Under the pieces are notes generated by a model. That model worked only from the letters and a program-made list of their open reading frames with translations. It was not told where the DNA came from and made no database searches. From positions 1 to 35,179 of the forward strand of contig JANQQN010000363.1 in assembly GCA_028289325.1 (NCBI GenBank): a stretch of 35,179 nucleotides of DNA, in the 5' to 3' direction. A program made the position numbers and the translations under genes. This document shows, one piece after another, positions 3,171 to 25,727 of the stretch (its first letter is position 1; every line of letters begins with the position of its first letter). The stretch is from Myxococcota bacterium. Lineage in GTDB: Bacteria; Myxococcota; Kuafuiibacteriia; Kuafuiibacteriales; Kuafuiibacteriaceae.

Positions 3171-3182
3171 GGAGCTCCACTG

Positions 3183-3221
3183 GCGCCAACCCGCGCCCGG
3201 TTGGCGCAGTAGGACGTTTTT
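3183..3221 (+). terminator. Probable intrinsic terminator after the carboxylase/PPTase operon
   Basis: GCGCCAACC (3183-3191) and GGTTGGCGC (3199-3207) form a perfect 9-bp stem with a 7-nt loop. Five T residues lie at 3217-3221. The T run is 9 nt from the stem, so termination may be partial. It sits 12 nt after the PPTase stop and before the next gene. Confidence 0.55.
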
Positions 3222-3236
3222 CGATACTTTCGCGCG

Positions 3237-4307: not shown

Positions 4308-4343
4308 AGCGCCCACCGTTAGACGCTCTAGAGCCGCTCTGGC

Positions 4344-4484
4344 TTAGCGCTCGATCCGCAGGGCGCCTGAGCGGCTGCGAAAAAAAGTCGGCACGTTCAT
4401 CGAGAACGGTCGCACGCCATCGAAGACCGCGTACACCACACAGATGGCCGCGGTGAATAGGGCTGTGATTTCAACCATGTTCAT
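4344..4484 (-). CDS. Possible 46-residue single-pass membrane protein
   Basis: A short leftward frame begins at ATG 4482-4484 and stops at 4344. It encodes a short N-terminus, one hydrophobic segment (about residues 5-22, ITALFTAAICVVYAVFDGV) and a basic tail with four Arg. GAGGG at 4493-4497 lies 8 nt before the ATG, good spacing for a ribosome binding site. It sits 116 bp downstream of the DUF3445 gene on the same strand and faces the end of the hydrolase gene. A longer frame reaching 4649 lacks the binding-site support. I do not recognise a family. The TM-plus-basic-tail layout and the ribosome binding site make it more credible than a random frame, but with only 46 codons it is unproven. 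Confidence 0.4.
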   Translation of the reverse strand: MNMVEITALFTAAICVVYAVFDGVRPFSMNVPTFFRSRSGALRIER

Positions 4485-4600
4485 GTTCGTGTCCCTCACG
4501 ATCTCAGTGCCCTCCAGCCGAGTAATGTGAACGGACCATGGCGAAAAAGAGTCGACGACATGACCTAAGTGGGTCAGCGACGCCGAGGGGGTGACCCAGC

Positions 4601-5539: not shown

Positions 5540-5592
5540 CCTGGTACCGTAGTGACTGCGTCCGCGATGCGGAATCAAGAACCGACGGCCCG

Positions 5593-6468: not shown

Positions 6469-6533
6469 ACGTCTCAACGTTGGCTGCAACGCGGGCTTAC
6501 GTGGCTCGGTCGGCGGCGTGTACTGTGTTCTTC

Positions 6534-7946: not shown

Positions 7947-7990
7947 CACGCGACGACGAGCTCCGCACCAACCGACGAGGAGACCTACCC

Positions 7991-9172: not shown

Positions 9173-9628
9173 CCCTCATCGACTCGCACCGTTCGACGAT
9201 CCGCAGGCTTCGACGCGCTGCGCCGCGACACGATGCCTCTTGATGGGGCTGCGCCGACGCGCGCCCGTCGGAGGTCGCCTGGTCCGAGGGTCGGGCACGG
9301 CCATGGCGCCGGCGGCTTGAGTGACCTTCACGCGCCGAGTGTGACGAAGTCTCTCGCGGATCATCACGCGACTCGTGGTTTCCCGAAGAGTCCCAACATA
9401 AGATCATCTCAAGCCGAGCAACGACCTGTGCCACGCCGTTCACTGGGCCCTCAGCGGAGCAAACGGGTGAGCGAAACCATTCGATGTCCGCGCCATTTTG
9501 GGTGATGTCCAACACCGAGTCTGCTTCTTCACGGGGAGTTTTTGCTGTATGAGAACGAGGCGGTTCCCAATCCGTCACAATTGTTACGAGGGAGACGCCT
9601 GATTCGAGCAATCAGAGGGAGGTTTTAC
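9173..9628 (+). other. 456-bp noncoding leader before the subtilase gene
   Basis: No frame here looks coding. Near the gene, CTGATT and AATCAG (9599-9604 and 9610-9615) can form a 6-bp hairpin that abuts the ribosome binding site AGGGAGG (9616-9622). Further up, GCGGA (9454-9458) pairs with TCCGC (9487-9491) and encloses CGGGTG/CATTCG (9464-9469, 9478-9483, with two G-U pairs). I could not match it to a known riboswitch. It probably holds the promoter and leader of the protease gene. Confidence 0.4.
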
Positions 9629-12600
9629 GTGTTCCGAAAATTAATGGCATTCGCCGCGGCCGGCGTTGTCGCGAGCGGTATTTACGCGTCCGCGACAACG
9701 GCCGGACCGTCGGTGGACCCGGGGCTGCTGAAGTCGGCCAGCCCCAAAAAGAACGTCAAGTGGGTTCGCCCTGTGGGCGCACCGTCGCCGGACGACAACC
9801 AAGAGCACCGCTACATCATCCAGTTCAACGAAGAGCCGCTTCCCCTGTATGAAGGTGGGGTTGCAGGCCTCGCCGCCACCCGGGTGCCGGCCGGCGAGAA
9901 GCTAGATCCAAACTCTACTGCGGCCCGCGCTTACGTCGATTTTCTTAAGCAGCGTCAAGAGGCCATGCTGAGCCGCATCTCCGACAATGTCGGGGGTATT
10001 CAGATTCTACGCCGCCATCAGCACGCCGTGAACGCGGTGACCGTCCGGATGACCGAGGTCATGGCGCGTAAGGTCCGACGCATGGAGGGCGTTCGATTCG
10101 TGGAGCGTGACCGCGCGATGATGCCGTCGACGCCCACCAGCATCGGATTCATCGGCGCGAGCCTGGTCCACACCGGCGACGCGACCGGCGTCCCCTACCA
10201 AGGTGAAGGCGCCGTCGTCGGCATCATCGACTCCGGTATCAACCACGAGCATCCCTCGTTCGCGGCCACCGGCGCCGACGGCTACACCGTCGAGAACCCC
10301 CTCGGCGACGGCAACTATCTCGGCGAGTGCGCGACGATCCCGGGCCTCTGCAATAGCAAGCTGATCGGCGCCTACACCTTCCTCGACAGCCAGGACAGCG
10401 ATCCGCCGGATGAGATTTTGATCCCCGGCGACCCGCCGTCGAGCGACACCGACGGCCACGGTAGCCACGTCGCCTCCACCGCGGCCGGCAACGTGCTGGA
10501 AGGCATCGCTTTGCCCGATGCCGACGGCAACCCGAGCTCGGTCCTCTTCTCGCGGATGTCCGGCGTCGCACCCCACGCCAACATCGTCGCCTACAAGGTC
10601 TGCGCGCCGTCGTGCTTCTTCTCGGACATCGCCGCCGCCGTCGACCAGGCGATCGCGGACGGCGTCGTCGACGCGCTCAACCAGTCGATCGGCTCCCCCG
10701 CCGGCAGCCCGTGGGAGTCGACCACGGCCCAGGCGTTCCTCTCCGCGCGCGCGGCCGGCATCTTCGTGGCCAACTCCGCCGGCAACGCGGGACCGGGCGT
10801 CGGCACCGCGGAGCGGTCAAACAACGCGCCTTGGTCCGCCGGCGTCGCGGCGACGACCCACGATCGCTCGTACCCCCCGAAGACCTTGGGTGACTTCTCC
10901 GGCGGCGATACCGCGCCCCCGGCCGAGATCTCGGGTCGCTCGATCTCGGGCGCCATCACCGGCGAGATCGTCTACGCCGGTGACTTCCCCATTGCCGGCG
11001 GCGGCGACAATGAGACGCAGCCCGAGCAGTGCTTGGTGCCGTTCCCTCCCGGCACGTTCACCGCCAACCAGATCGTGGTTTGTGATCGCGGTACGATCGC
11101 TCGTGTAGCCAAGGGTCAGAACGTTCGCGATGGTGGCGCCGGTGGCTTCATCCTCGCCAACACCGACGGCGGCGCGACCACCGTCAACAACGATCCCCAC
11201 GTCATCCCGTCGATCCATATCGCGGCCGCCGAAGCCACCGCTCTGCGCGCCTGGCTGGCCAGCGGCTCCGGTCACACCGGCACCATCACCGCCGTGACCG
11301 AGCAGATCTCGGATCCCGCGGCCGGCGACAACATGGCCGGCTTCAGCTCCCGAGGCCCGTACACCGGCTTCGAGTTCCTCGCCCCGAACATCGCCGCGCC
11401 CGGCGTCGAAGTTTTCGCCGCCGGCGCAGAGCTGACCCAAGCGCAGGTCGACCTCGCGGCCGAGCTGTACGCCGGTACGCCTTCCGAGAATCCGTCCGTC
11501 CCCGACGAGTTCGGTCAGATCGGCGGCACCTCGATGGCCAGCCCCCACATCGCGGGAACCTCGCTTCTGATCCGTCAGGCCCATCCCGACTGGACGGCGG
11601 CGGAGATCCTGTCTGCGATGATGACCACCGGCACGTACGTCGGGGTCAAGGAAGACGGCACCACGCCTGTTGACCTTCACGACGTCGGTGGCGGCCGCGT
11701 TCAGGTCGACAAGGCCATCAACGCAGGCCTGGTGCTCGACGAGACCGCGAGCAACTTCGAATCGGCCAACCCCGCCGAAGGTGGCGACCCCAAGACCCTG
11801 AACGTCGCCGCGATGGTCAACATCTCTTGCGTCGGGGTGTGCAGCTGGAGCCGAACCGTGCGGGCGACCGTCGACGGAACCTGGACCACCTCCGGTCTCG
11901 ACCCCTGGGTGAGCGTCTCTCCGGCCGAGTTTACGTTGGCCGCGGGCGAGACCCAGACCGTCGAGATCACCGCCGAGGTCTCCGGGCAGCCGAACGGCGA
12001 GTGGGCGTTCAGCCGCGCCCTGATCACCCCCGCCGACGAGAGCATCCCGACCACCCACATGGCGGTCGCGGTTCTGCCCGCGTCGGGCTCGCTGCCCAGC
12101 GCGGTCAACCTCGTGGCCACCCGAGACGCGGGTTCGCAGCTGTTCACCGACCTGACCGCGCTGAGCCTCGATGGCTTCAACGTGCGGATCTACGAGCCGG
12201 CCAAGGTCGAGGGCCAGGAGTTCGCCCTGCCTGGGGATAGCGACAACTCGTCGGCGTTCGATGACCTGACCGACGGCGTCACCTTCATCACCCAGGACGT
12301 GGGGCCGGACGCGCAGCGCGCGCTGTTCCAGGTTCTGACTTCCGAGTCGCCGGACCTCGATCTCTTCGTAGGTGTGGTGGTCGACCCGGGAACCCCGGTG
12401 CAGGAAGACTTCCTGGTCTGCGTTTCCGCGACCGCGACCGCTATCGAGTCCTGCGACCTCGACGCGGCGTTCCTCAACACCCTTCGTAGCGTGTTCGGCG
12501 AGAACCTGACCTTCTACGCGGTCATCCAGAACTGGGCGCCCAGCGCCCCGGATGCGGTGGACGCCTTTACGTTCGCGTCGACGGTGGTCGGCGGGGCTGA

Positions 12601-14182
12601 TGCCCAAAACATCGTGGCCCAGGGCCCGACCGGCGCCTTGCCGCCGCTCACCCCGTTCGACGTCCGGTTCTTCTGGAACTTCCCCGCCGAGCCCGGCGAC
12701 CTCTACATCAGCGCCACCGAGTGGTACGCGGATTCGGGTCGCACCCAGCTCCTGGGAACGGCGCCGCTGCAGTTTGCTCGCGGCGAAGACGACATCGCGA
12801 TCTCGGCCAGCACCACGGAGGCGAAGGTGGGCGACACCATCGATTTCGCGGTGACCATCTCGCCGAACTTCACGCCCAGCGACCGGACGTACACCATCGC
12901 GGTGCCGATCCCCGACGGGCTGGAGGTCGATCCCGATTCGATCAGCAACGGCGGCTTCAGCCTCGGCAACGTGGTCTTCTGGCCCGCGGTCACTCAGGCG
13001 ACCCTCGTCGGCCAGTTCGGCGAGTACTTGACCAGCACCAACGCCGACAACCCGGCCTGCGACATGCCGTTCGGCGGGGGCTACATCGACCTCGCCGGCT
13101 TCGGCATCCTGCCCCAGGCCGACCTCACCGGCGATACGTTCACGGCCACGTTCTTCAGCACCCAGAACCCCGTCGAGTTCTACGGCGCGCCGAAGAGCGG
13201 CCTGACGGTCACCGACGATGGCTTCGCCTTCTTCGAGTCGAGCCCCGGCTTCCTGCCGTTCATTCCGTTGCCGATCCCGGATCCGACCGAGCCCAACGAC
13301 ATGCTGGCGCCGTTCTGGGCGGACTGGTTCATCAACTTCAACGACGGCAGCGATGGAAATCGCATCCGTGGCATCTCGGCGGCGACGGCGGGGCTGGACA
13401 TCTCGATCATCGAGTGGGACGGCGTCGAGCTGTGGCCGGGCGCGGGCGGCAACCCGATCTCGGGTGACTTCGAGCTGCTGATGTACAGCACCCCAGCGCC
13501 GGATCGCCCCGAGTTCCTGTTCGCGTACAACAACCTGGACGCCGAAACCAACGCGGCCATCGAGGCGGCGCTCGGTCCGATTCGAACCGGCGTGGAGAGC
13601 ATCGACGGTTCCGTGGGCACGGAGTACACGGGCGAGCACACCGATGGGCTCATCGTTTGCTTCGACTACGTCGCGCCGGTGTCGAACCCGATCCCGCTGA
13701 CCTTCTCGGCCAAGGTGAAGGACATCGCGCACGGCACGACCATCGAGGTGGCCGAGTTCAACACCGTCGACGACCCCGGCGCGGCCGAGGAGTCGAGCAG
13801 CGTGGAGATCTCGGTGGAGCGCCTGCCCTACGAGTTCCAGGGCTTCCTGGGCCTCGAGGACGGGGACATCATCAACCTCCGGAGCCTGCTGACCCGCTGG
13901 TTCGGGGTTGATGTGAAGTTCCGCCTCCTGGATCCGGTGACCGGGGCTCGGGTGAGCACTGCAGAAGCGTTCGTGACCGTGACCGACGCGAACGGCCACG
14001 TCGTCCGCGAAGGCCAAGCCAAGTACCGGTCCTGGCGCGGTATCTACAGGTACAACTTCCGTACGCAGGGCCTGAAGAAGGGTCTGTACACCATCACGGC
14101 CAGCTTCGACGACGGCACGTCGCGTAGCATCCAAGTCGAGATGGTCAAGCGCCGCCGGCCTTGGTGGTGGTTGTTCTGGTAG
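9629..14182 (+). CDS. Giant secreted subtilisin-family (S8) serine protease
   Basis: 1517 residues from GTG 9629, chosen for AGGGAGG 6 nt upstream and the signal peptide that follows (FRKLMAFAAAGVVASGIYASATTA). Order: signal (1-28); I9-type propeptide (about 61-164, HRYIIQF to VRFVERDR); S8 catalytic domain with Asp201 (GIIDSGIN), His277 (DGHGSH) and Ser635 (GGTSMASPH); and a protease-associated insert (about 450-555, IVVCDRGTIARVAKGQNV). About 850 residues follow: beta-rich Fn3-like regions, a segment beginning DIAISASTTEAKVGDTIDF that resembles DUF11/CARDB-type repeats, and a C-terminal FQGFL/VKFRL/YNFRTQGLKKGLYTI module that weakly recalls PxKF domains. The chain ends KRRRPWWWLFW. Family knowledge: broad endopeptidase, matured by propeptide removal, probably extracellular. 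The oxyanion Asn region NSAGNAGPG is present, so it should be active. A 12-bp hairpin follows the stop. Confidence 0.93.
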   Translation: MFRKLMAFAAAGVVASGIYASATTAGPSVDPGLLKSASPKKNVKWVRPVGAPSPDDNQEHRYIIQFNEEPLPLYEGGVAGLAATRVPAGEKLDPNSTAARAYVDFLKQRQEAMLSRISDNVGGIQILRRHQHAVNAVTVRMTEVMARKVRRMEGVRFVERDRAMMPSTPTSIGFIGASLVHTGDATGVPYQGEGAVVGIIDSGINHEHPSFAATGADGYTVENPLGDGNYLGECATIPGLCNSKLIGAYTFLDSQDSDPPDEILIPGDPPSSDTDGHGSHVASTAAGNVLEGIALPDADGNPSSVLFSRMSGVAPHANIVAYKVCAPSCFFSDIAAAVDQAIADGVVDALNQSIGSPAGSPWESTTAQAFLSARAAGIFVANSAGNAGPGVGTAERSNNAPWSAGVAATTHDRSYPPKTLGDFSGGDTAPPAEISGRSISGAITGEIVYAGDFPIAGGGDNETQPEQCLVPFPPGTFTANQIVVCDRGTIARVAKGQNVRDGGAGGFILANTDGGATTVNNDPHVIPSIHIAAAEATALRAWLASGSGHTGTITAVTEQISDPAAGDNMAGFSSRGPYTGFEFLAPNIAAPGVEVFAAGAELTQAQVDLAAELYAGTPSENPSVPDEFGQIGGTSMASPHIAGTSLLIRQAHPDWTAAEILSAMMTTGTYVGVKEDGTTPVDLHDVGGGRVQVDKAINAGLVLDETASNFESANPAEGGDPKTLNVAAMVNISCVGVCSWSRTVRATVDGTWTTSGLDPWVSVSPAEFTLAAGETQTVEITAEVSGQPNGEWAFSRALITPADESIPTTHMAVAVLPASGSLPSAVNLVATRDAGSQLFTDLTALSLDGFNVRIYEPAKVEGQEFALPGDSDNSSAFDDLTDGVTFITQDVGPDAQRALFQVLTSESPDLDLFVGVVVDPGTPVQEDFLVCVSATATAIESCDLDAAFLNTLRSVFGENLTFYAVIQNWAPSAPDAVDAFTFASTVVGGADAQNIVAQGPTGALPPLTPFDVRFFWNFPAEPGDLYISATEWYADSGRTQLLGTAPLQFARGEDDIAISASTTEAKVGDTIDFAVTISPNFTPSDRTYTIAVPIPDGLEVDPDSISNGGFSLGNVVFWPAVTQATLVGQFGEYLTSTNADNPACDMPFGGGYIDLAGFGILPQADLTGDTFTATFFSTQNPVEFYGAPKSGLTVTDDGFAFFESSPGFLPFIPLPIPDPTEPNDMLAPFWADWFINFNDGSDGNRIRGISAATAGLDISIIEWDGVELWPGAGGNPISGDFELLMYSTPAPDRPEFLFAYNNLDAETNAAIEAALGPIRTGVESIDGSVGTEYTGEHTDGLIVCFDYVAPVSNPIPLTFSAKVKDIAHGTTIEVAEFNTVDDPGAAEESSSVEISVERLPYEFQGFLGLEDGDIINLRSLLTRWFGVDVKFRLLDPVTGARVSTAEAFVTVTDANGHVVREGQAKYRSWRGIYRYNFRTQGLKKGLYTITASFDDGTSRSIQVEMVKRRRPWWWLFW

Positions 14183-14915: not shown

Positions 14916-16145
14916 ATGCCGTGCATCCGTTCAGGGCTCATCGTCGCCCTTACCGCGGTCGTGCCCATCGGCTGCAATGACCCGGCCATCGCCACGCTGG
15001 AGACGAGCTTCGTCTGTCGCCTGCCCACCGATATCGGACCTTGCGACGCGGACATCCCGCGCTGGACGTACGACGCGGTATCCGGCCGATGCGTGTCATT
15101 CACCTATGGCGGATGCGGGGGCAACGCGAACAACTTCGAGTCGTCGGACGCCTGCGTTGACGCCTGCGGCGGCACGCCCCCGCCCAGCCTGTGTGGCGGG
15201 CCCGACGGATTGCCCTGCGGCAACGACGAATACTGTGACTCGCCCGATCCTGCGTGCGGAGACCCTGAACAAGCCGGTGTCTGCCGCCCCCGACCCGAGA
15301 GCTGCGACGAGGCGACGCCCAATCCGGTGTGCGGCTGCGACGGACGCACCTATGACACGCCGTGTGATGCCCATCAACAGGGCATCGAGATCGACCGAGA
15401 AGGCGCGTGCGCCGGCCCACCGCCAACGGCCTGCACCAACCCGGCGGACGCCGCGTGCGGGCCCTTGGAGTTTTGTGAGTTCGACGGCGAACAGTGCGGC
15501 GCCGACGGTAACGGCGGTTTTTGCCAGCCTCGCCCCGAGGCCTGCACCGACGTCTTCGATCCGGTCTGCGGCTGCGATGGACGAACCTATAGTAACCAGT
15601 GTTACGCACAGTCGGCAGGCGTCGATATTCGCTTCGTCGGCACCTGCGACAGCGACAATGGCACCAGCGTCGATGTCTGTACCGACGCCGATCGATCGAC
15701 CCTCATCCAAGGCGCCAGCAAGACCTTCAGCTTCTGCACCCACGACTGCCGGTTCGAGCTCTCGGTCCTCGCTTCGCCGTCGTCGACTTCAGGTGAGTGC
15801 GACGTCGCTCAGCTCGAGATCTGCAACAACGTCCCGAATCCTGCCTGCAGTATCATCGTCGCTCGGCTCTCCTCCGCCGGTCACGAACGCCTGCGGGCCC
15901 TCGCCCACGACCTGGAGGGCGCTTCCCTCAAGCCGCCATTTGCCTGCCCGGACTGCGCCGACGGCGGGTCGGCCACCCTCGATGTCGTGCGCGACGGCGC
16001 ATCGGTGAAAATGCTCTATCCGTTCTTTGCACCGCCCGCCCCGCTCGAGACGGCCCATGAGTTCGTCCAGTCGTTGATCGAAGACGTCCGCGCGTGCCGC
16101 ACCACGACCTGGGTGACGGCGGACAGCGCCTGTGAGGCCCGATGA
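14916..16145 (+). CDS. Kunitz-Kazal-Kazal protease-inhibitor lipoprotein
   Basis: 409 residues. The signal ends at VVPIGC (Cys20), a probable lipidation site. Residues 34-84 are a Kunitz/BPTI domain: cysteines 34, 43, 59, 67, 80 and 84 have spacings 9-16-8-13-4, identical to BPTI, with GPC, FTYGGCGGNANNF and a final DAC. Two Cys-rich repeats follow (about 93-165 and 173-244), each ending in a Kazal-type domain with PVCGCDGRTY (cysteines 130, 139, 141, 150, 165 and 210, 218, 220, 229, 244). The last ~160 residues, with several Cys, are unassigned. Family knowledge: both folds present a loop that blocks serine proteases in a substrate-like way, with specificity set by P1. By alignment P1 is Asp44 (Kunitz), probably Glu132 (first Kazal, one residue longer in the loop) and Asp212 (second Kazal). 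Kunitz domains are rare in bacteria. Likely anchored at the cell surface or in the periplasm. Confidence 0.88.
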   Translation: MPCIRSGLIVALTAVVPIGCNDPAIATLETSFVCRLPTDIGPCDADIPRWTYDAVSGRCVSFTYGGCGGNANNFESSDACVDACGGTPPPSLCGGPDGLPCGNDEYCDSPDPACGDPEQAGVCRPRPESCDEATPNPVCGCDGRTYDTPCDAHQQGIEIDREGACAGPPPTACTNPADAACGPLEFCEFDGEQCGADGNGGFCQPRPEACTDVFDPVCGCDGRTYSNQCYAQSAGVDIRFVGTCDSDNGTSVDVCTDADRSTLIQGASKTFSFCTHDCRFELSVLASPSSTSGECDVAQLEICNNVPNPACSIIVARLSSAGHERLRALAHDLEGASLKPPFACPDCADGGSATLDVVRDGASVKMLYPFFAPPAPLETAHEFVQSLIEDVRACRTTTWVTADSACEAR

Positions 16146-16202
16146 CCCCCCTGAGCGCTCCGCTCGCGGTTGCGCCTCGGCGTCACGCGGGCCATGAATA
16201 AA

Positions 16203-16222
16203 CGGACGGTCTCAACCGTCCG
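16203..16222 (+). terminator. 8-bp hairpin between inhibitor and chalcone-isomerase-like genes
   Basis: CGGACGGT (16203-16210) and ACCGTCCG (16215-16222) form a perfect stem with a CTCA loop, 58 nt after the inhibitor stop and 50 nt before the next start. There is no T run, so it could be a terminator or part of the next gene's leader. Confidence 0.4.
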
Positions 16223-16271
16223 ATGGCGAGGACTCGAGCTCTCCGGCTCGACCAGGAGGAGTATTCCGATC

Positions 16272-16856
16272 ATGTACAAGATTCATTTCCGAGCGGGGAC
16301 CGCGATCGCCGCCCTGGCGCTACTTCTGTCGACGACCCCCGTCGAGGCCGCCGAACGCGACGGGATCAAGCTGCCCGACACCCAAACCGTCGACGGCAAG
16401 ACCTTGGTCCTGAACGGCATCGGCATCCGCGAAGCCACGATCTTTCAAATCGACGTGTACTTCGCCGGCCTCTATCTCGAGAAGAAGACCAAGGATGCGA
16501 AGTCGATCATCGACGGCGGCACGAAGCGGATCCTGATGCACTTCGTGCGCGGTGTCGACAAAGACCAGATCGCGGAAGCGTACGAAGAAGGCTTCGAAAA
16601 GAACGCCGGCGACAAGCTTCCGAACCTCAAGAAGAAGATTGCGCAGCTCAACAGCCACATGGCCGACATGAAGGAAGGCGACAAGATGAGCCTGACCTAC
16701 GTCGCAGGCAAGGGCGTGTACACCGAAGTGAAGGGCAAGAACTACGGTCCCATCGAAGGTGAAGACTTCGCGAAGGTTCTTTTCCTGATCTTCTTCGGCG
16801 AAAAGCCACCGAACTCGGACCTCAAAGAAGGCATGCTGGGGCTGCTCAAGAGCTGA
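16272..16856 (+). CDS. Exported chalcone-isomerase-fold protein
   Basis: 194 residues from ATG 16272, with AGGAGG at 16254-16259 (12 nt away, rather long) and a clean Sec signal (MYKIHFRAGTAIAALALLLSTTPVEA, cleavage before AERDG). The mature part carries the bacterial chalcone-isomerase-like pattern: GKTLVLNGIGIREATIFQIDVYFAGLYLEK, then KRILMHFVRGVDKDQI, EAYEEGFEKN, GDKMSLTYVAGKGVYTEVKGK, and FLIFFGEKPPNSDLKEGMLG. Family knowledge: bacterial members of this periplasmic family (chalcone_isomerase/Chalcone_3) share the fold, but their activity is unknown; they lack proof of flavonoid isomerisation and may bind fatty acids or lipids. Its strand and position after the inhibitor gene suggest but do not prove cotranscription, given the hairpin between them. 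Confidence 0.85.
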   Translation: MYKIHFRAGTAIAALALLLSTTPVEAAERDGIKLPDTQTVDGKTLVLNGIGIREATIFQIDVYFAGLYLEKKTKDAKSIIDGGTKRILMHFVRGVDKDQIAEAYEEGFEKNAGDKLPNLKKKIAQLNSHMADMKEGDKMSLTYVAGKGVYTEVKGKNYGPIEGEDFAKVLFLIFFGEKPPNSDLKEGMLGLLKS

Positions 16857-16917: not shown

Positions 16918-19380
16918 TCACTCGTACCGCAGCGCCTCCGCCGGCGCGGTGGCTGCGGCCCGCATCGCATTGGCGAGGACGGCGACCGTCGCCACCGCCG
17001 CCACGACCAGCATCGCTTCGATGAACCAGCTCGGGCTCAACGAAGTGCGCACCGCGAACCCCGACAGCCACCGGTGGGACACCACGAGCCCGAACGGAAG
17101 CGCCAACACCGACGCGATGAGCGCAGGACGAACAAAGGCCGCGATCATCAGCCGCAGAATGTCCGACCACTCGGCGCCCAGCGCCTTTCGAATGCCGATC
17201 TCTCGGGTTCGACGCTGAGCCGCGAAGGCGCTCATTCCGTACAGCCCCAGACAAGCAAGAAGAACGGCCAGGACCCCGAACCCCGCGATGAGGTGAAGGA
17301 CCCGACGGTCTTCTTCGTACAGCTCGGCCATCTGGTCATCCAGATACGCCGAGGTCATGAGGTGCATCGGGTACGCGCGGTCCCAGCTTTGCTCGACGCT
17401 GTCGCTCGCGGCCTCGCGCCGCTCGGCGTCGAAATGCACGATGTATGTCTGCGCGGCCGCAGTGTTGGGTAAGAACACCATCGGCTCGATGGCGAAGCGG
17501 AGACTGCGATAGTGCAGGTCTTCGACCACCCCCACCACTTCGACCTTCTGCGGCCCGCGTTGAGCGTCGTTGATGGTGACCACCTTGCCCACCAGCGACT
17601 CGTAGTCCGAGCCCACCAACCGCTGCGCGGTCTGCCGAGACACCACCACCGACAGCAGATCGGCCTTGGCCATCGGGTCTTCGATCAGCAGTCGGTCTCG
17701 CGCGTAGTCTTCACCGAACGTTCGTCCGGCCAGTAGCCGCACCTCCAACGTGGAAAAGAAATCCAGGCCCACGTCGAGATAGATGACTTGGGTCTTCGGA
17801 GCGAGGGGAAGATCCGGGGCCGACAACGTCACTCTTCGTTCGAAGTTCCAGTTGGGAAGCGCGCCAGCGGCGGTCACCCCGCGGACGTCAGGACTGGCCA
17901 GGGCCAAGCGTTTGAAGGTCTTGAACCGCTGGGGCGTCTGCGTCGGACCATAGTTCACGCCGACCAGCACCATCCGGTTCGCGCGATCGAAGCCCAGCGG
18001 CTGCTCGGCCACGAAGCGAGCCTGCGCCATCATCACAAAGACGAAGCACAGCAGCACCGTCGCCGTCGCCAGCTGAATCAAGAGCAGACCTTGATTGACG
18101 AAGGCGAGGCCTCGCCCTTGCGCGATCCGACCCTTGAGCGCAGTGGCGGCCGGCTGTCGAGCAAGGTACATCGCGGGATAGATCCCGACCGCCAACGCCA
18201 ATCCGACGCCCCCCACCACCGCCGCGAGAAGAAACTCTGGGTGGTGCAACGAGCCCATCGTCAGCTCGCGTCCGATCCCCAGCGCAAACCACGGTAACAG
18301 CATCTCCGCCATTGAAAAGCCCAGCAGGACGGCGAGGCCGGTAAAGATGAAGCTACCGCCGAGGTAGTGCAGCGCGACGTCGGCCGGCGTCGCGCCCAGC
18401 GCCTTACGTAGCCCCACCTCCCTAGCTGCGGTCACCGAGCGCGCCAACGACATGGTCACGTAGTTGAACGCCGAAACAGCGAGAATCAACAGGGCGATGG
18501 CCCCGAACAACGCCAGCTGGTTCGCATCCCCGTGAGCCGCGTACTCGTTCAGCTTCGCGTCGTTGAGGTGGATATCGACGATCGGCGTCGCGAAGAACTC
18601 CACCTTCGGACGAAGCTCGTCGTCCCCATCGTCGAGTCGCTTTTGTACCGTCGCGCGAGCGATGCTCACGATTGAAGAGAAGCAAGCCTCCTCGGTGCCG
18701 GGCGTGGCCCGCACGTAATACAGAGTGTTGGCCCGAGTGAGATTCGTCTCGGCACTGCGCCGATCCGACCGCCGAGCCACGCCCGTGGTCGGCGCGAGCA
18801 TATCGATCTCCAGATGCGTGGTGCGGGCCAGCGGCTCCAGAACCGCAGCCACGCGCAGCTCTGCATCAGGCGGGAGGCGCAGCGTTCGGCCGACAGGGTT
18901 GACGTCGCCAAACAGTTTCTCGGCCACCCGGGCGGTGAGGACCACGTTGGACGGCTCCGACAGGGCGTCCTCGGCGTCTCCGAATTTGGCCGGCAAGGGA
19001 AAGACCTTGAACACATCCGGATCCACGTACGAGATCCGATGATTGTACTTCTGGTCGCCGACCTGCACCGTGTACCACTCGGCCTGCATCCGGGTCTGCG
19101 CTTCGATGCAGTCGACACCTTCGGCGATGACCGACGACAGCCCGCTGGGTGCATACGCGGACTCCCGCGGCGACTCCCCCGGCCGGACCACCGTCGTTTC
19201 GATCCGGGCCACCTGCTCCGCCCCCGGCAACCATCGCTCGAAGCTCAACTCTTCTCGAACGTAGGCCCCGACCAACAGCGCGGTGGTACACCCCACGGCC
19301 AGGCTCAAGACCGTAATCACCGAAAAGAACAGGTCGCTCCTGAGGAGCCGCCACCCGGAGACGATGATGTGACGAATCAT
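16918..19380 (-). CDS. FtsX/MacB-type ABC transporter permease (820 aa, double-unit)
   Basis: 820 residues; the ATG overlaps the ATPase stop by 4 nt (ATGA). Architecture: N-terminal TM (about 18-42), large extracytoplasmic MacB-PCD-like domain (about 45-270), a first FtsX three-TM unit (about 285-400, ALFGAIALLILAVSAFNYVTMSLARSVTAAREVGLRKALGA), then a second N-terminal-type TM (about 430-450), a second extracytoplasmic domain and a final FtsX unit (about 700-815, IAGFGVLAVLLACLGLYGMSAFAAQRRTREIGIRKALGAEWSDI). The GLRKALGA and GIRKALGA coupling helices that contact the ATPase occur in both halves. Family knowledge: such mechanotransmission permeases drive export or extraction of peptides, antibiotics or lipoproteins rather than classical channel transport. 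The substrate is unknown. Last gene of the exporter operon. Confidence 0.9.
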   Translation of the reverse strand: MIRHIIVSGWRLLRSDLFFSVITVLSLAVGCTTALLVGAYVREELSFERWLPGAEQVARIETTVVRPGESPRESAYAPSGLSSVIAEGVDCIEAQTRMQAEWYTVQVGDQKYNHRISYVDPDVFKVFPLPAKFGDAEDALSEPSNVVLTARVAEKLFGDVNPVGRTLRLPPDAELRVAAVLEPLARTTHLEIDMLAPTTGVARRSDRRSAETNLTRANTLYYVRATPGTEEACFSSIVSIARATVQKRLDDGDDELRPKVEFFATPIVDIHLNDAKLNEYAAHGDANQLALFGAIALLILAVSAFNYVTMSLARSVTAAREVGLRKALGATPADVALHYLGGSFIFTGLAVLLGFSMAEMLLPWFALGIGRELTMGSLHHPEFLLAAVVGGVGLALAVGIYPAMYLARQPAATALKGRIAQGRGLAFVNQGLLLIQLATATVLLCFVFVMMAQARFVAEQPLGFDRANRMVLVGVNYGPTQTPQRFKTFKRLALASPDVRGVTAAGALPNWNFERRVTLSAPDLPLAPKTQVIYLDVGLDFFSTLEVRLLAGRTFGEDYARDRLLIEDPMAKADLLSVVVSRQTAQRLVGSDYESLVGKVVTINDAQRGPQKVEVVGVVEDLHYRSLRFAIEPMVFLPNTAAAQTYIVHFDAERREAASDSVEQSWDRAYPMHLMTSAYLDDQMAELYEEDRRVLHLIAGFGVLAVLLACLGLYGMSAFAAQRRTREIGIRKALGAEWSDILRLMIAAFVRPALIASVLALPFGLVVSHRWLSGFAVRTSLSPSWFIEAMLVVAAVATVAVLANAMRAAATAPAEALRYE

Positions 19381-20072
19381 GACGCGACCAATCTCCGTCG
19401 ACGCGACTCATCGGCGACGATCGCCCCGTCACGAAGGGACACGAGGCGTCCGACGACGTCGGCATGCTGAACGGAATGCGTCACCATGATCACCGTCGCG
19501 CCTTCGTCGTTGAGCGAGGCGAGGGTATCGAGCACTTCGCGCCCGTGGTGGCTATCCAGATTCCCTGTCGGCTCATCGGCGAGGATGATCGATGGTTCGG
19601 ACACCAAAGCGCGAGCGATAGCAACGCGCTGCTGTTGCCCACCCGACAGCTGAGCCGGCCGGTGGCGAGCGCGATGGCCCATTCCTACTCGGTCCAGTAC
19701 CGCATCGACCTTCGTTCGACGCAACTTCGGCTTCACGCGTCGATAGAGCAGCGCGAGCTCCACGTTCTCGCGAACACTCAGGGTGTCGACAAGATTGAAG
19801 CTCTGAAAGACGAACCCGATATGGCGCCGGCGGAACGCGGCCAGGGTCTTCTCGTTTCGACCGGTCAGCAGCTCGCCGTTGATCGAATAGGTCCCCGAGG
19901 TCGGCGTATCGAGCGTGCCGAGAATGTTGAGGAGCGTGGACTTTCCGCAGCCCGACGGCCCCATGATGGCCACGAACTCCCCGTCCGTGACACTGAGGTC
20001 GACGTCGCGCAGCGCCGTCGTTTCCACATCAACGGTGCGATACACTTTGGTGATGCCCTTCAGTTCCAGCAC
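19377..20072 (-). CDS. ABC transporter ATP-binding protein (LolD/MacB type)
   Basis: 231 residues from GTG 20070-20072, chosen because AAGGAG (20079-20084) lies exactly 6 nt upstream and because the protein then begins [11 protein letters not shown], the usual start of this family. A GTG at 20088-20090 that overlaps the preceding stop would add six residues but lacks a binding site. Motifs: Walker [10 protein letters not shown] (38-46), Q-loop [16 protein letters not shown], signature [15 protein letters not shown], Walker [13 protein letters not shown] and switch [15 protein letters not shown] near the N-terminus is typical of LolD/MacB. Family knowledge: ATP-driven dimer that powers the FtsX-type permease encoded next. 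The charged tail [10 protein letters not shown] is ordinary. Confidence 0.93.
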
Positions 20073-20086
20073 AAGTAACTCCTTGA

Positions 20087-21358
20087 TCACTTCGGTCCCG
20101 ACACCAAGACGAGTTGGTCAACGTCGTCGAAGCTCGAGTAGTTTGAAACGATGACGCGATCGCCCTCGGCGAGCCCGCTGAGAACCTCCACGAAATCCGT
20201 GTTGCGGCGACCGGTTCGAATCGAGCGCCGGGTCGCGACGGTGCCGTCTTCATCGACGGCGTAGACCCAGTTGCCGCCCGTCCGTTCCAAGAACGGGCCG
20301 GTCGGAATGAGGAGTGCAGGCATAGGATCGCCGAGGTACAGCCGCAGGGTCAGCGACTGCCCCCGGCGCAAAGCCGGCGGCTGCCGCCCACTGAACTGCA
20401 GATCCGCCTCGAAGAAGCCTTGGGTCACCTCCGGAGACACCGGTCCCACGCGCAGGGTGTAGGGCTTACCGTCGATCTCGGCCTCGGCGGCCAGCCCCGG
20501 CGACACCCGGGCGAGATAGAACTCGTCGATCTGGGCCACGATCTTGAATTCGTCGGGGGCGTCGATTCGACCGATGCGCTCGCCCCGCTGCAGCGACTGT
20601 CCGACCTCCACCGAAAACGCGGTGAGGGTCCCGGCGACCGGTGCGGTCACCAACAGTGAGGCGAGGTTGTTGCGCGCGATGTCCAGGTTGCGCTGCAGAC
20701 GCGCCGCCGAGTCGCGCAGCTGCTGGACCTGGGCTCGGGTCATCCGTTCGTCCGAATCGCGAGCGCGAACGGTGACCGTGCGCAGCTTCCGCTGGTAGGC
20801 GAGCTCGTCCTGGGCGTCCTCGACTTCGACTCGGGAGATGGTGCCGTTGTCGGCCAAGGCTCGGTTTCGCTCGAGAAAACGGCGCAACCGCTGAATCTGA
20901 TAGTCGATGCCCACCAGCGCGCGCGCGTGATCCAAGCGGTTCCGCTCCAGGTTGAGCTCCAACGTGCGAAGGGTGTTGAGCTGCTCTTCGACCTGCGCTT
21001 CACGCGACAGGACGTCGAGCTGCAGCTGCACGTTGGACAGCTGCACGAGCTGCGCACCGACCTCCACCGCGCCGCCATCGGTCGCGAGCACCTTCTCCAC
21101 TCGTCCGCCTTCGACGGCGTCCAGAAAGACCGTGCGCGCGGGTTCGACCCGTCCCCGCATGGGAACGAAGTCTTCGAACGGTCCGGTAATGACCGAGGCG
21201 ACCCTGATTCGACCGCGGGCTGCCGTTCTCGACGCCCCGGAAGGGGGCCACAGCGCGGCGATCGCCCAACCCGCCAGCGCGACGAGGACCACCCCCACCG
21301 CCCAAACCGCTCGTCCGGAGGGGCGGGCGACCACGCGGTCCATGGCCTGGCCACTCAT
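20087..21358 (-). CDS. Periplasmic membrane-fusion protein (HlyD/MacA-type)
   Basis: 423 residues from ATG 21356-21358. One N-terminal TM segment (about 17-37, GRAVWAVGVVLVALAGWAIAALWP), then a barrel/lipoyl region (VRPARTVFLDAVEGGRVEKVLATDGGAVEVGAQLVQL-type pattern), a long alpha-helical hairpin (about 110-230, rich in Leu, Arg and Glu), the second lipoyl half (VTAPVAGTLTAFSVEVGQSLQRGERIGRI) and beta-barrel domains (LIPTGPFLERTGGNWVYAV, TDFVEVLSGLAEGDRVIVS). Family knowledge: such adaptors bridge a MacB-like transporter to an outer membrane channel. No outer membrane TolC gene is in view. It is the first gene of the leftward operon, 14 bp before the ATPase. The start agrees with a predicted sigma-54 transcript beginning near 21375, although no clear ribosome binding site precedes it. 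Confidence 0.88.
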   Translation of the reverse strand: MSGQAMDRVVARPSGRAVWAVGVVLVALAGWAIAALWPPSGASRTAARGRIRVASVITGPFEDFVPMRGRVEPARTVFLDAVEGGRVEKVLATDGGAVEVGAQLVQLSNVQLQLDVLSREAQVEEQLNTLRTLELNLERNRLDHARALVGIDYQIQRLRRFLERNRALADNGTISRVEVEDAQDELAYQRKLRTVTVRARDSDERMTRAQVQQLRDSAARLQRNLDIARNNLASLLVTAPVAGTLTAFSVEVGQSLQRGERIGRIDAPDEFKIVAQIDEFYLARVSPGLAAEAEIDGKPYTLRVGPVSPEVTQGFFEADLQFSGRQPPALRRGQSLTLRLYLGDPMPALLIPTGPFLERTGGNWVYAVDEDGTVATRRSIRTGRRNTDFVEVLSGLAEGDRVIVSNYSSFDDVDQLVLVSGPK

Positions 21359-21385
21359 GTCGTTGATGGTCACGACGGCGGGTAG

Positions 21386-21402
21386 AGCGGGAATCGTGCC
21401 AG
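21386..21402 (-). promoter_or_regulatory. Sigma-54-type -24/-12 promoter element for the exporter operon
   Basis: Read leftward, 21402 to 21386 is C-TGGCACG-ATTC-CCGCT. The -24 half TGGCACG is perfect, and the invariant GC of the -12 half falls at the exact position required (CCGCT against TTGCW). The predicted start of transcription is near 21375, some 17 nt before the MFP ATG. A divergent NtrC-family activator gene and an upstream palindrome strengthen the call. The two T to C changes in the -12 half make it weaker than consensus. Confidence 0.65.
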
Positions 21403-21451
21403 CGCCGGTCCGGCCTTTTGCGATTCGATTTCGGCCCGTCGACTGGTGTAG

Positions 21452-21471
21452 GGTGTTCGATATCGAACACC
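21452..21471. promoter_or_regulatory. Perfect 20-bp palindrome, candidate NtrC-family enhancer/operator
   Basis: GGTGTTCGATATCGAACACC is its own reverse complement over 20 bp. It lies in the divergent gap: centre about 86 bp upstream of the predicted exporter transcription start and 34 bp upstream of the regulator ATG. This position suits an upstream activating site for the adjacent sigma-54 activator, and could also autoregulate the regulator gene. Confidence 0.7.
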
Positions 21472-21495
21472 TTCTGCCCGAAATCAAACGGTGTG

Positions 21496-22857
21496 ATGTC
21501 CGGAAGACTCCTGATCATCGATGACGATCCCCATGTGCTGGAGGCGGCCCGTTTGGCGCTGCAGCCGCAGTTTTCGTCCATCCAGACGGCTTCGTCGCCG
21601 GCCGCGCTCGACGGCCCCCGCGACGTCGACGCCGTTCTGCTCGACATGAACTACGGACCGGGGGAGCACACCGGACGCACCGGTCTCGCGGCCCTGGACA
21701 CGGTTCGGGCGCGGGATCCCACCCTGTCCGTCGTGTGTCTGACCGCCTACGGGGAGATCGATCTCGCGGTGGAAGCGATGCGTCGAGGCGCGGTCGATTT
21801 TCTGGTCAAACCCTGGGAGAACGAGCGGCTGAAGGCGACCGCGACCAACGCGGTCGCGTTGACCCGGGCCCGTCGGGAGTCCGCCGAACGGCAGGAGGTC
21901 GTAGATGCGCTCGCCGCGCCCCCTCTCGGCTCGGCGCCGGTGGCCGCATCGGTGGCCATGCGTCGGTGCTTGGCGCTCGCCCAGCAGGTCGCGAAGAGCG
22001 ACGCGAACGTCTTGATCCTCGGTGAGAACGGGGTCGGAAAGGAGATCGTCGCCCACGAAGTCCACCGCTGGTCGCTGCGCCGCCGGCAACCGTTCGTCGC
22101 CGTCGATCTCGGCGCCCTCCCGGATACGATCGCCGAAAGCGAGCTGTTCGGTCACAAAAAGGGCGCCTTCTCAGGGGCCGCGGAAGACCGGGTGGGTCGG
22201 GTCATCGCCGCGGACGGCGGGACCCTGTTCCTCGACGAACTCGCGAACGCGTCGTTGGCGCTGCAAGCAAAACTGCTGCGGGTCATCGAGCAGCGCAAGG
22301 TCGTCACCTTGGGCTCGGACGTCGAACGCGGAGTCGACGTCCGGTTCATCGCCGCCACCAACGCGACCGACGAGCATCTCTATGACCGAGAGCGGTTCCG
22401 CGTCGACCTGCTCTTTCGCCTGCGAACGATCGAGATCCGCGTTCCGCCCCTGCGCGAACGGCCGGAAGACATTCGCGCCTTGGTTCCGCACTTCCTCGAG
22501 CAGTTCGCGACCAAGTACCGTCAAGGCGCGGTGCCCACGATCAGCGACCAGGCCTGGCGCCACCTTCTCGAACATCGGTGGCCGGGCAACGTTCGTGAGC
22601 TCCGTCAGGCCGTCGAGCGCGCGGTCATCGTGTCATCGCGGGCGGCGCTCGGACCGGACGACTTCCAGCTCGTCGCGCCGCCACCGCGGCACGACTCGCT
22701 CGACGCTCCCGGCGGCGCGATGACCCTGGAAGCGCTCGAGCGGTCAGCCGTGAGCCGGGCCCTCGCTCGCCATCAAGGCAACGTTACCCGCGCCGCGGCG
22801 GAGCTCGGCATCACCCGGTCGGCGCTGTACCGGCGAATGGAAAAGTATGGGCTCTAG
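21496..22857 (+). CDS. NtrC-family sigma-54-dependent response regulator
   Basis: 453 residues from ATG 21496. Receiver domain (1-120): acidic IIDDDPH, phospho-acceptor Asp50 in VLLDMNY, conserved Lys in FLVKPW near 105. AAA+ sigma-54-interaction domain (about 150-380): Walker A GENGVGKE, GAFSGA loop (223-228), Walker B GGTLFLDEL, arginine-finger segment RFRVDLLFRLRTIEIRVPPLRERPEDI, and HRWPGNVRELRQAVERAV. C-terminal Fis-type helix-turn-helix GNVTRAAAELGITRSALYRRMEKYGL. The loop has Ser226 where most activators have Thr, a conservative change, so sigma-54 contact is probably kept. Role inferred: when phosphorylated by the kinase encoded next, it binds the palindrome and activates the exporter promoter. 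It overlaps the kinase gene by 11 nt. Downstream of the palindrome, so autoregulation is possible. Confidence 0.92.
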   Translation: MSGRLLIIDDDPHVLEAARLALQPQFSSIQTASSPAALDGPRDVDAVLLDMNYGPGEHTGRTGLAALDTVRARDPTLSVVCLTAYGEIDLAVEAMRRGAVDFLVKPWENERLKATATNAVALTRARRESAERQEVVDALAAPPLGSAPVAASVAMRRCLALAQQVAKSDANVLILGENGVGKEIVAHEVHRWSLRRRQPFVAVDLGALPDTIAESELFGHKKGAFSGAAEDRVGRVIAADGGTLFLDELANASLALQAKLLRVIEQRKVVTLGSDVERGVDVRFIAATNATDEHLYDRERFRVDLLFRLRTIEIRVPPLRERPEDIRALVPHFLEQFATKYRQGAVPTISDQAWRHLLEHRWPGNVRELRQAVERAVIVSSRAALGPDDFQLVAPPPRHDSLDAPGGAMTLEALERSAVSRALARHQGNVTRAAAELGITRSALYRRMEKYGL

Positions 22858-24193
22858 CGCCTGGCGACAGCTCGGATGGGCGTCGGCCGCCGCCGCCGCG
22901 CTGGCGGGGGCGGTGGTCGTGGCCGTCGAATATTACGCCTACGCGACCGCCGCCGTTCTCACGCTGACCGCTTTAGGGTGCGGTAGCGCGCTGTGGCTGG
23001 AGGTCCGGCGGCCGATCGCCGAGCTCCGCGATTTTCTCGGCGCGCTGCGGGGAGGCGAGCTGGCGGGCATCGGTCCGTCCACCGCCACCACATCGCCGCT
23101 GGGCACGGAGATCCGGCGTACGGTCGAAGCGCTTCGGCAGCGGTTCATGGCCGTTGAAACGGAAGTATTGAGGCTCGATGCGATTGTACAGCACCTGCCC
23201 GACGCGCTGGTCGAGATCGACGGCGACCACATCGAACCCCTCAACCACGCGGCTCGGCGCTTACTCGGGTCCACCCGTTCTCTCGCCGCGCTCGACGACC
23301 TCGAGCCCGACCTCGGCCAGACCCTCCGGACCATCCGGCCCGGCGCCCCGGTCTTATGGCGAACCGCCGAGGGTGCGCGACGGCTGCATATGAACGCAAA
23401 GTGGCTCCGCACCGCCGATGGCCGCCGGACCATCGTATCGCTCAAGGATATCGACCATGCGTTGGGCCGAGCGGAGTTCGATGCATGGAGAGATCTCATC
23501 CGGGTCGTCAATCACGAGATCATCAACGCCCTGACGCCGATCTCTTCGCTGGCCGAAACGAGCCGGTCGCTGGCCATGGACCTTCCCGACGAGCTTCCGA
23601 CCGCGCCCTCTCTGCGCCAAGTGACGTCGTCGCTGGTGGACCGAGCGCGGAGCCTTCGCGCATTCATCGGCAAATACCGTGACCTGTCGCGGCGACCCTC
23701 GCCGCACCTGGAAACCGTCCATCTCGACGCCTTACTGCGGTCTTTCGTTACCGAGTTGAACGCCCAGCCGGGAGCGCGAGTGATCCTCCGGAGCGAAATC
23801 GAGCCTCTGGTCGCCGAACTGGACGCCAGCCTCATCCAACAGGCCGTCCTCAACCTGATCGTCAATGCGCAGGATGCCTTGCCCGACCCGAAGACCTCGG
23901 ATCCTATCGTGGTGACCCTTCGTCGTCGAGAGACGACCATCGGTGATCGCGAGGTGGTGATCGACGTCGAAGACCGAGGCCCCGGCGTCCCCGCTGCCGC
24001 GGCCGAACAACTGTTCGTGCCTTTCTTCACCACGAAGGCCCACGGTACGGGGGTTGGCCTGAGCGTGGTGCGGCAGATCTGCCTGGCCCACCGTGGCTAC
24101 GTTCAGTGGGAGAACCGCGCTGAGGGGGGCGCTCGATTCTCCATCCATCTTCCCGAGCGCACGGTCGACGACGGCGGCCTCACCGCCCGCTGA
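22847..24193 (+). CDS. Membrane sensor histidine kinase, partner of the NtrC-type regulator
   Basis: 448 residues; the ATG lies 11 nt inside the regulator gene, a sign of translational coupling. Two TM segments separated by only a few residues (about 10-30 and 32-50) leave almost no periplasmic sensor loop. A HAMP-like linker (VRRPIAELRDFLGALRGGEL) and a PAS-like domain (about 108-210, LDAIVQHLPDALVEIDGDHIEPLNHAARRLLG) follow. The catalytic part has His223 in VVNHEIINALTPISSL, N-box NLIVNAQDAL, G1 DVEDRGPGVP, F-box LFVPFFTTK and G2 GTGVGLSVV. Family knowledge: autophosphorylates His and transfers to the regulator's Asp50. With no sizeable external domain, the signal may be sensed within the membrane or by the PAS domain, or passed on by the ABC permease itself, as in antimicrobial-peptide detox modules (inference). 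Confidence 0.92.
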   Translation: MGSSAWRQLGWASAAAAALAGAVVVAVEYYAYATAAVLTLTALGCGSALWLEVRRPIAELRDFLGALRGGELAGIGPSTATTSPLGTEIRRTVEALRQRFMAVETEVLRLDAIVQHLPDALVEIDGDHIEPLNHAARRLLGSTRSLAALDDLEPDLGQTLRTIRPGAPVLWRTAEGARRLHMNAKWLRTADGRRTIVSLKDIDHALGRAEFDAWRDLIRVVNHEIINALTPISSLAETSRSLAMDLPDELPTAPSLRQVTSSLVDRARSLRAFIGKYRDLSRRPSPHLETVHLDALLRSFVTELNAQPGARVILRSEIEPLVAELDASLIQQAVLNLIVNAQDALPDPKTSDPIVVTLRRRETTIGDREVVIDVEDRGPGVPAAAAEQLFVPFFTTKAHGTGVGLSVVRQICLAHRGYVQWENRAEGGARFSIHLPERTVDDGGLTAR

Positions 24194-24308: not shown

Positions 24309-25727
24309 ATGAAGCCCACCGACCTCGCGCGCTGCCCCCGCCTCCCTTTCTTCGTTGCGCTCCTGGCGACCACCAGCTGCGTGGCCGGGCAGAACCAACC
24401 CCCGGCTCCATTGGCCAGTGCCCCCGCGTCCCAAGCGGCCTCTGGCCCTCGCGACGACGCGACTGAAGCTCGACCGAAGGCCATTGCCCGTCCCGTGGTG
24501 TGGGCCGTGAACATCGGTGGTCCCGCCCACGTCGGGGTCGACGGAACGCACTACGAAGCCGAGTCGATGACCCGCGGTGGTCGGGCCGGGACCCTCGCCA
24601 CCGTGAAGGGTTCGCAGGATCCATTGCTCTATCGAACGTATCGGGTCGGCGACGTCGAGATCTCCCGCCCCATCGACAACGGGATCTACGACCTGACCTT
24701 TCATTTTGCGGAACCCGAAGACATTTCCGGCGGGGCGCGGATCTTCGATGCCTTCGCCGAAGGGCGACGGGTGATCGACGACCTCGACGTCATGGCATCC
24801 CGAGACGGCAAGGTGTACTCCGCGCTCACGGTCACCGTGGCCGGCGTCGAAGTCACCGACGGAGCCCTCGACGTTCGGCTGGCGGCCAAGGTTCGGCAGC
24901 CGGTCCTGAACGCGCTGGTCGTACGCAGCCAGCGCCCGCGGGCCGCCGAATGGACGCTGATGTGGCAAGACGAGTTCAACACCGGACCCGGCATCGACCC
25001 CGACAAATGGGCGATCAACGTCTGGTCCCCGCGAAAGGTGAACGACGAAGACCAAGCCTATACGCCGCGGGCCAAGAACCTCCGGGTCGAGAACGGTCAC
25101 TTGGTCATCGAAGCCCACAAAGAAGCCTACGAAGGCGCGAGCTACACGTCGGGCCGGATTCACTCCCATGGGGACGGTGGCTTTCTATACGGGCGCTTCG
25201 AGATTCGCGCTCAGCTGCCGAGAGGTCGCGGAACATGGCCCGCGATCTGGATGTTACCTGCCAACCCATTCAAGTATGCGACCCGCTGCAAGGAGGGCGA
25301 AGACTGGCAAGGCAGCTCGACCTGCGATGCGTGGCCGAATTCCGGCGAGATCGACATCATGGAACACGTCGGTTACCAAATGGGCCACGTACACGGCACC
25401 GTACACAATGAGGCCTACTACTGGGTGAAGTGGGAGCAACGCAAAGGTCGCGTCCTGATCGACGACGTCGACGATGCCTTTCACGTCTACGCCCTCGAAT
25501 GGACCCCCGACCGAATCGATATCTTCGTCGACGATACGCTTTACTTCACCTACGTCAACGAGGGCACCGGCTGGAACGCTTGGCCCTACGATCAGCCGTT
25601 TCAGTTGATCTTGAACGTCGCCGTAGGCGGCGTTTGGGGGCGCGCGGGCGGCGGGATCGACGATGCCATCTTCCCGCAGCGGATGCGGGTCGACTACGTT
25701 CGGGTCTACTCGAGGCCGAGTCTCTAG
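24309..25727 (+). CDS. Malectin-GH16 beta-glucanase-like lipoprotein
   Basis: 472 residues. The signal ends at LLATTSC (Cys25), a probable lipidation site, followed by an Ala/Pro-rich linker. Residues about 60-205 form a malectin-like carbohydrate-binding domain (VVWAVNIGG, YEAESMTRGG, LLYRTYRVGDVEISRPIDNGIYDLTFHFAEPE, with RIFDAFAEGRRVIDDLDV). Residues about 215-472 are a GH16 catalytic domain (WTLMWQDEFNTGPGIDPDKW, LVIEAHKE, GRFEIRAQLPRGRGTWPAIWMLP) with the signature GEIDIMEH: nucleophile Glu347, Asp349 and acid/base Glu352. The C-terminal WPYDQPFQLILNVAVGG and RMRVDYVRVY complete the fold. Family knowledge: GH16 lipoproteins of this kind cut laminarin, lichenan or related beta-1,3/1,4 glucans. 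The external substrate is not determined. Transcribed rightward, 115 bp after the kinase gene. Confidence 0.92.
   Translation: MKPTDLARCPRLPFFVALLATTSCVAGQNQPPAPLASAPASQAASGPRDDATEARPKAIARPVVWAVNIGGPAHVGVDGTHYEAESMTRGGRAGTLATVKGSQDPLLYRTYRVGDVEISRPIDNGIYDLTFHFAEPEDISGGARIFDAFAEGRRVIDDLDVMASRDGKVYSALTVTVAGVEVTDGALDVRLAAKVRQPVLNALVVRSQRPRAAEWTLMWQDEFNTGPGIDPDKWAINVWSPRKVNDEDQAYTPRAKNLRVENGHLVIEAHKEAYEGASYTSGRIHSHGDGGFLYGRFEIRAQLPRGRGTWPAIWMLPANPFKYATRCKEGEDWQGSSTCDAWPNSGEIDIMEHVGYQMGHVHGTVHNEAYYWVKWEQRKGRVLIDDVDDAFHVYALEWTPDRIDIFVDDTLYFTYVNEGTGWNAWPYDQPFQLILNVAVGGVWGRAGGGIDDAIFPQRMRVDYVRVYSRPSL

Follow-up and report, generated by a model that had tools for sequence, protein, structure and literature searches.

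Here we describe a perfect 20 bp palindrome that is very probably the enhancer of the adjacent NtrC-type response regulator, from which sigma-54-dependent transcription of a divergently encoded adaptor-ABC-permease operon would be activated. It lies in a window of 35,179 nucleotides, the whole stretch of DNA analysed, from the genome of a member of the Myxococcota. Conservation of the operator across phyla, together with the joint loss in some relatives of a regulator loop and of the promoter, leads us to read the palindrome as an enhancer and the exporter as its sigma-54 target. The overall architecture is classical and its comparative support unusually strong; the comparisons place the putative circuit in at least three phyla, and its operator and cognate regulator appear to be undescribed in the open-access literature. 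The features concerned are as follows.

16918-19380, minus strand: permease of 820 amino acids with two MacB_PCD and two FtsX stretches, ADOP/DarB-like
19377-20090, minus strand: ABC ATPase (ABC_tran; MacB/LolD/DarD-like), exact start uncertain
20087-21358, minus strand: membrane-fusion/periplasmic adaptor (HlyD_3 and HlyD_D23), DarC-like, start codon uncertain
21386-21401, minus strand: sigma-54 -24/-12 element TGGCACGATTCCCGCT, facing the exporter operon
21452-21471, no strand: putative palindromic operator/UAS GGTGTTCGATATCGAACACC, perfect over 20 bp, with core TGTTCGATATCGAACA at 21454-21469
21496-22857, plus strand: NtrC-type response regulator with REC, AAA+ Sigma54_activat and HTH_8 domains
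22847-24193, plus strand: sensor histidine kinase with two TM helices, a weak PAS domain, HisKA and HATPase_c

A preliminary description of this DNA had placed, in a 137 bp gap between the divergent exporter operon and an NtrC-type regulator, a -24/-12 element pointing at the exporter (TGGCACG and a correctly spaced GC) and, about 60 bp further upstream, a perfect 20 bp palindrome, the whole lying beside its own regulator, kinase and ABC exporter. Direct reading of the sequence confirmed the gap, which spans 21359-21495 between the adaptor start at 21358 and the regulator start at 21496, as well as both elements at the coordinates given above, and domain matches bore out the identity of the genes. 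Read on the minus strand, TGGCACGATTCCCGCT has its GG at 21400/21399 and its GC at 21388/21387, with the canonical 10 bp between them; the -24 half, TGGCACG, is perfect and the -12 half, CCGCT, is weaker than the consensus TTGCW. Measured from the palindrome centre, the -24 is 60 bp away and the predicted transcript start of the exporter, near 21375, about 86 bp away. A GG-N10-GC element that has an operator 50-150 bp upstream and is conserved in orthologs is the arrangement of a sigma-54 promoter with its enhancer, and this is the arrangement found; rpoN is present in the genome, and the 137 bp gap yielded no sigma-70-like promoter. No other perfect palindrome in the window reaches 20 bp, the next longest being 16 bp, and base composition predicts 0.08 perfect palindromes of at least 20 bp per 35 kb, or 0.0003 per 137 bp gap.

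The regulator has the domain set of the NtrC family (PF00072, 1.4e-15; PF00158, 6.3e-57; PF02954, 4.2e-14), with ITRSALYRRMEKYGL as the recognition helix region of its HTH_8 domain. Its sigma-54 contact loop is present as GAFSGA, a conservative variant of GAFTGA, and relatives carry GAFTDA, GAFTGA or GSFTDA; in a regulator tree the protein has a long branch. Near the adaptor start, relatives share a G-x-AMDR-like motif. PADLOC returned only ATPase matches of the kind given by any ABC/AAA ATPase. Among neighbouring genes, a large subtilase (9542-14182; S8, PA and I9) adjoins the gene for a 409-aa protein (14916-16145, plus strand) with a Kunitz/BPTI domain (1.2e-19) and Kazal domains, which are protease-inhibitor domains unusual in bacteria. 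A chalcone isomerase-like protein (PF16036, 2.6e-48) is encoded at 16170-16856 on the plus strand, convergent with the exporter operon, and the gene directly 3′ of the kinase gene (24309-25727, plus strand) encodes a glycoside hydrolase of family 16 that has a malectin domain at its N terminus and also an SKN1/KRE6-like match.

The exact palindrome is a single copy in the 8.93 Mb genome; a genome-wide search also gave a copy with two mismatches, on contig C181, which was set aside as it apparently lies within coding sequence. The core recurs beside the protein of the same genome that best matches the regulator, a paralog on contig C301 (about 47-48% identity) with the same divergent gene order, whose adaptor, ATPase and permease are 49%, 62% and 29% identical to those of the window. 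The intergenic region of C301 holds TGTACGTAGGCGTACA and TGTTCGAGCGCGTACA, 21 bp apart and 69 and 48 bp from TGGCACGCGACGTGC, a perfect -24/-12 element. These sites gave the operator-core hypothesis TGTWCG-N4-CGWACA, later widened to TGTNCG-N4-CGNACA, the family consensus. The widened motif occurs 23 times in this genome, and in 17 locus records covering most of these sites a convincing -24/-12 element was found only at C301 and C456; no larger regulon was seen among the motif loci examined in this genome.

Conservation in relatives, set in advance as a test, was upheld, the core being found at the same position in orthologs of three phyla as well as in the same-genome paralog. Scanning GTDB genomes with an alignment of the adaptor gave 11 clear orthologs (34-41% identity), from five Spirosoma, a Cytophagaceae MAG, Sphingomonas koreensis, an Undibacterium MAG, two alphaproteobacterial MAGs and a Myxococcales MAG. 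In each of the 11, which together span Pseudomonadota, Bacteroidota and Myxococcota, a site differing from the motif at no more than one position precedes the adaptor, and in eight of them GG-N10-GC follows roughly 55-80 bp downstream, with a weak match in the Myxococcales MAG; the exceptions are one Spirosoma in which it is off by one (L136), L142, which lacks the GC, and Sphingomonas, which has none. In the Myxococcales MAG the exporter is near a contig end, its operator TGTTCACGAACGGACA and -24/-12 element are both weak, and no regulator was found beside the exporter.

Statistical support comes from 34 regulator-adaptor intergenic regions (29 from Sphingomonadales, the window, C301, L132, L134 and L142), which were chosen through protein homology and not by the motif, two of them being those that had suggested it. 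Of these regions, 31 contain the exact motif against 0.02 expected from dinucleotide shuffles, and with at most one mismatch it is present in all 34 against 0.55 expected; as the regions are related to one another, they do not amount to 34 independent trials. The sites recur within unrelated flanking sequence in three phyla, typically with the operator centre 47, 70-72 or 91-93 bp from the -24; A/T is frequent at the four central positions. The site is doubled or tripled at many loci, at intervals of 21-24 bp (about two helical turns), as is frequent among relatives; the window has a single copy.

The sigma-54 reading of the window element is supported by regulators in which the loop has been lost. 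In Sphingomonas the regulator lacks the whole stretch holding GAFTGA despite the presence of rpoN in its genome, for which reason 30 Sphingomonadales homologs of the regulator were collected by protein similarity. All 26 regulators with an intact GAF/GSF loop face a divergent TGG-N10-GC element, whereas none of the four loop-less regulators does, and the operator is kept at each of the three loop-less loci in which the regulator lies beside the adaptor. The four form one clade in the tree and so probably represent a single evolutionary event. On an Acetobacter tropicalis plasmid with a loop-less regulator the gap likewise contains TGTCCGTTTCTGGACA and no -24/-12 element; this conjugative plasmid carries a complete exporter together with TolC, regulator and kinase (1739-10140). 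Where no regulator lies next to the exporter, as on a Janthinobacterium plasmid, no operator was found upstream of the adaptor. That exporter relative (J. lividum plasmid p356839, 877-10104) is accompanied by a phosphopantetheinyl transferase and a cyclic-peptide exporter, and its position in a peptide biosynthesis cluster suggests that the family exports peptide natural products.

More distant loci show drift of the site. In Myxococcaceae-like relatives (family name inferred; regulator 45-47% and adaptor about 25% identical), the regulator and kinase genes follow those of the exporter and are co-directional with them. TGTNCG-N4-CGNACA was not matched within one mismatch in these orthologs; about 80-100 bp upstream of TGGCACG they have TGTCCGNTYCTGGGACG, the same half-sites with one extra base between, and a further half-site. 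TGTCC...GGAC half-sites with a 7 bp spacer occur in Myxococcaceae and Bacteroidales, while Phocaeicola and Parabacteroides have similar half-sites at a spacing unlike TGTNCG-N4-CGNACA, and a Hymenobacter plasmid copy has also diverged. The gammaproteobacterium Pseudoalteromonas piscicida has TGTACGATATCGTACA with a good -24 and TTGA at the -12, which lacks the GC.

Blind DNA scans need to be read by location. In 396 Bacteroidota genomes, GTCCG-N4-CGGAC followed after 45-75 bp by TGGC-N9-GC gave 25 matches against about 54 for a reversed-pattern control counted by hand; this total is not above the control, so that the counts alone prove nothing and only where the matches fall is telling. Ten of the 25 adjoin adaptor, ATPase, permease or regulator genes, and most others lie inside long ORFs. 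One (L171) carries GGTGTTCGATACCGAACAC, almost the palindrome of the window, before another adaptor (26% identity), and three (L167, L172 and L173) place the operator and a -24/-12 element before stand-alone FtsX-type permease genes, which suggests regulons of several FtsX permeases in some Bacteroidota genomes. The equivalent scan of 399 Pseudomonadota genomes gave five matches, two of them before an adaptor and ATPase. Taken together, these comparisons delineate a putative operator, its pairing with this type of regulator and exporter, its position relative to the -24/-12 element and the coupled loss of loop and promoter.

Because the palindrome sits 25-44 bp upstream of the regulator start codon, it may tune the regulator's own expression. 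This short distance and the imperfect -12 half would also suit an arrangement in which the palindrome serves mainly for autoregulation of the regulator-kinase operon, with the -24/-12 match due to chance and the exporter transcribed from a different promoter. We consider this improbable, as the geometry from operator to -24/-12 is conserved toward the adaptor in relatives, the regulators of operator-bearing loci retain the GAF/GSF loop unless the -24/-12 has gone as well, the gap has no detected sigma-70-like promoter, and the Myxococcaceae half-sites are upstream of the adaptor even though the regulator there follows the exporter genes co-directionally. Binding by some other global or unrelated dimeric regulator, whether repressor or activator, is very improbable. 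Perfect palindromes with a 16 bp core are also typical of many HTH repressors, but the site tracks the regulator/exporter pair across phyla, is absent where the Janthinobacterium exporter lacks an adjacent regulator, and, in the own-genome locus records described above, is accompanied by a convincing -24/-12 element only in the window, besides the paralogous C301. Finally, the palindrome folds as RNA (-19.4 kcal/mol, z -2.1), yet a hairpin or terminator stem, or a chance feature, is contradicted by the cross-phylum pattern and can be practically dismissed: there is no T-run and no terminator was found, the outer bases are conserved at fixed spacing around variable, often A/T-rich centres, copies recur in tandem 21-24 bp apart, and the exact motif is in 31 of 34 regions against the 0.02 expected.

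The enhancer reading itself has points against it, namely the off-consensus -12, the single operator, the GAFSGA loop, the long-branch regulator and the drift in relatives. Under this reading the neighbouring kinase would phosphorylate the regulator, whose dimer would bind TGTNCG-N4-CGNACA; an AAA+ ring would assemble on the operator-bound regulator and remodel sigma-54 RNA polymerase at the -24/-12 element (21386-21401) about 60 bp away, and the adaptor-ABC-permease operon would be switched on from about 21375. Regulator binding, phosphorylation and dependence on sigma-54 in vivo are what we infer from the sequence comparisons.

The kinase had been described as having almost no periplasmic loop, and hydropathy agrees: two hydrophobic stretches lie within residues 8-53 with few residues between, and two TM helices with a very short loop are seen in nearly all kinase relatives. 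A loop of this size makes periplasmic ligand binding by the kinase alone unlikely. The signal may come from a partner (perhaps the transporter), from the membrane or through the PAS domain; it is probably a compound that acts on the envelope or is exported, with sensing in the membrane. The Bce modules of Firmicutes (BceAB-BceRS) combine an FtsX-superfamily ABC transporter with a kinase nearly devoid of an extracytoplasmic loop (PMC10314905, PMC3023708), and by hydropathy the kinase of the window has the architecture of such an intramembrane-sensing kinase. The retention of the short loop in nearly all relatives makes Bce-like sensing plausible, and by analogy the signal is possibly sensed by way of the transporter. 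Unlike a Bce module, the window encodes a Gram-negative tripartite-type exporter with an adaptor and a sigma-54 output. It is conceivable, if rather doubtful, that a Gram-negative counterpart of Bce extends across phyla, in which the adaptor/FtsX exporter would sense and signal through an intramembrane kinase to sigma-54 at one operator, with at least one lineage rewired to another sigma factor while retaining the operator. The system makes the question of transporter-sensed (Bce-like) two-component systems in Gram-negative bacteria directly testable.

Among named exporters, the darobactin system (DarB permease, DarC adaptor, DarD ATPase; NF038008, NF038010, NF038007) has the same set of adaptor, ATPase and large permease. 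The Dar models are the best named NCBIfam relatives of the adaptor and ATPase, with scores that stay below their cut-offs (adaptor 203/450, ATPase 262/375 and permease 90/700 bits), and the window exporter differs in having a dedicated sigma-54 two-component system. The permease shares its duplicated MacB_PCD/FtsX arrangement with ADOP (TIGR03434), which it matches over its full length at 267 bits, below the cut-off of 622. In contrast to MacAB, ATPase and permease are separate genes and not fused as in MacB, and the MacB equivalog score is far below its cut-off. The regulator resembles those of the NtrC/ZraR type, which likewise combine REC, an AAA+ sigma-54 activation domain and a Fis-type HTH, bind palindromes located about 70-110 bp before the start and have a divergent or adjacent histidine kinase; it differs in its TGTNCG/CGNACA half-site, and NCBIfam equivalog cut-offs are not reached. 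Among named enhancers we know of none that has this sequence.

The closest published observation comes from a study in which predicted sigma-54 promoters are reported to be enriched before FtsX-like permeases of COG0577 in Gammaproteobacteria, Opitutia and Bacteroidia, a link which that study, in its available text, calls the first of its kind (PMC12316311, 2025). The same text names no operator, regulator or kinase for these permeases, and the window is Myxococcota-like. According to that paper, rpoN is essential in Myxococcus xanthus. Beyond that paper we found no publication on the operator motif or the regulator-exporter pairing in the open-access literature, which includes few subscription journals. 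The present analysis would give a large and poorly understood set of sigma-54-controlled FtsX/Dar-like exporters its cognate operator and regulator, and TGTNCG-N4-CGNACA with a -24/-12 element offers a motif for finding target exporters in many phyla. HupR and TyrR are NtrC-family regulators that have lost the interaction with sigma-54, in an account whose available text makes no mention of ABC transport, efflux or MacB (PMC3162934). The loop-less regulators of Sphingomonadales and Acetobacter are alike in this respect and show cleanly, in a natural setting, how an enhancer-binding protein can lose its contact with sigma-54 and still keep its site; in contrast to HupR and TyrR, conservation of the operator here makes it possible to trace the promoter switch inside a single system.
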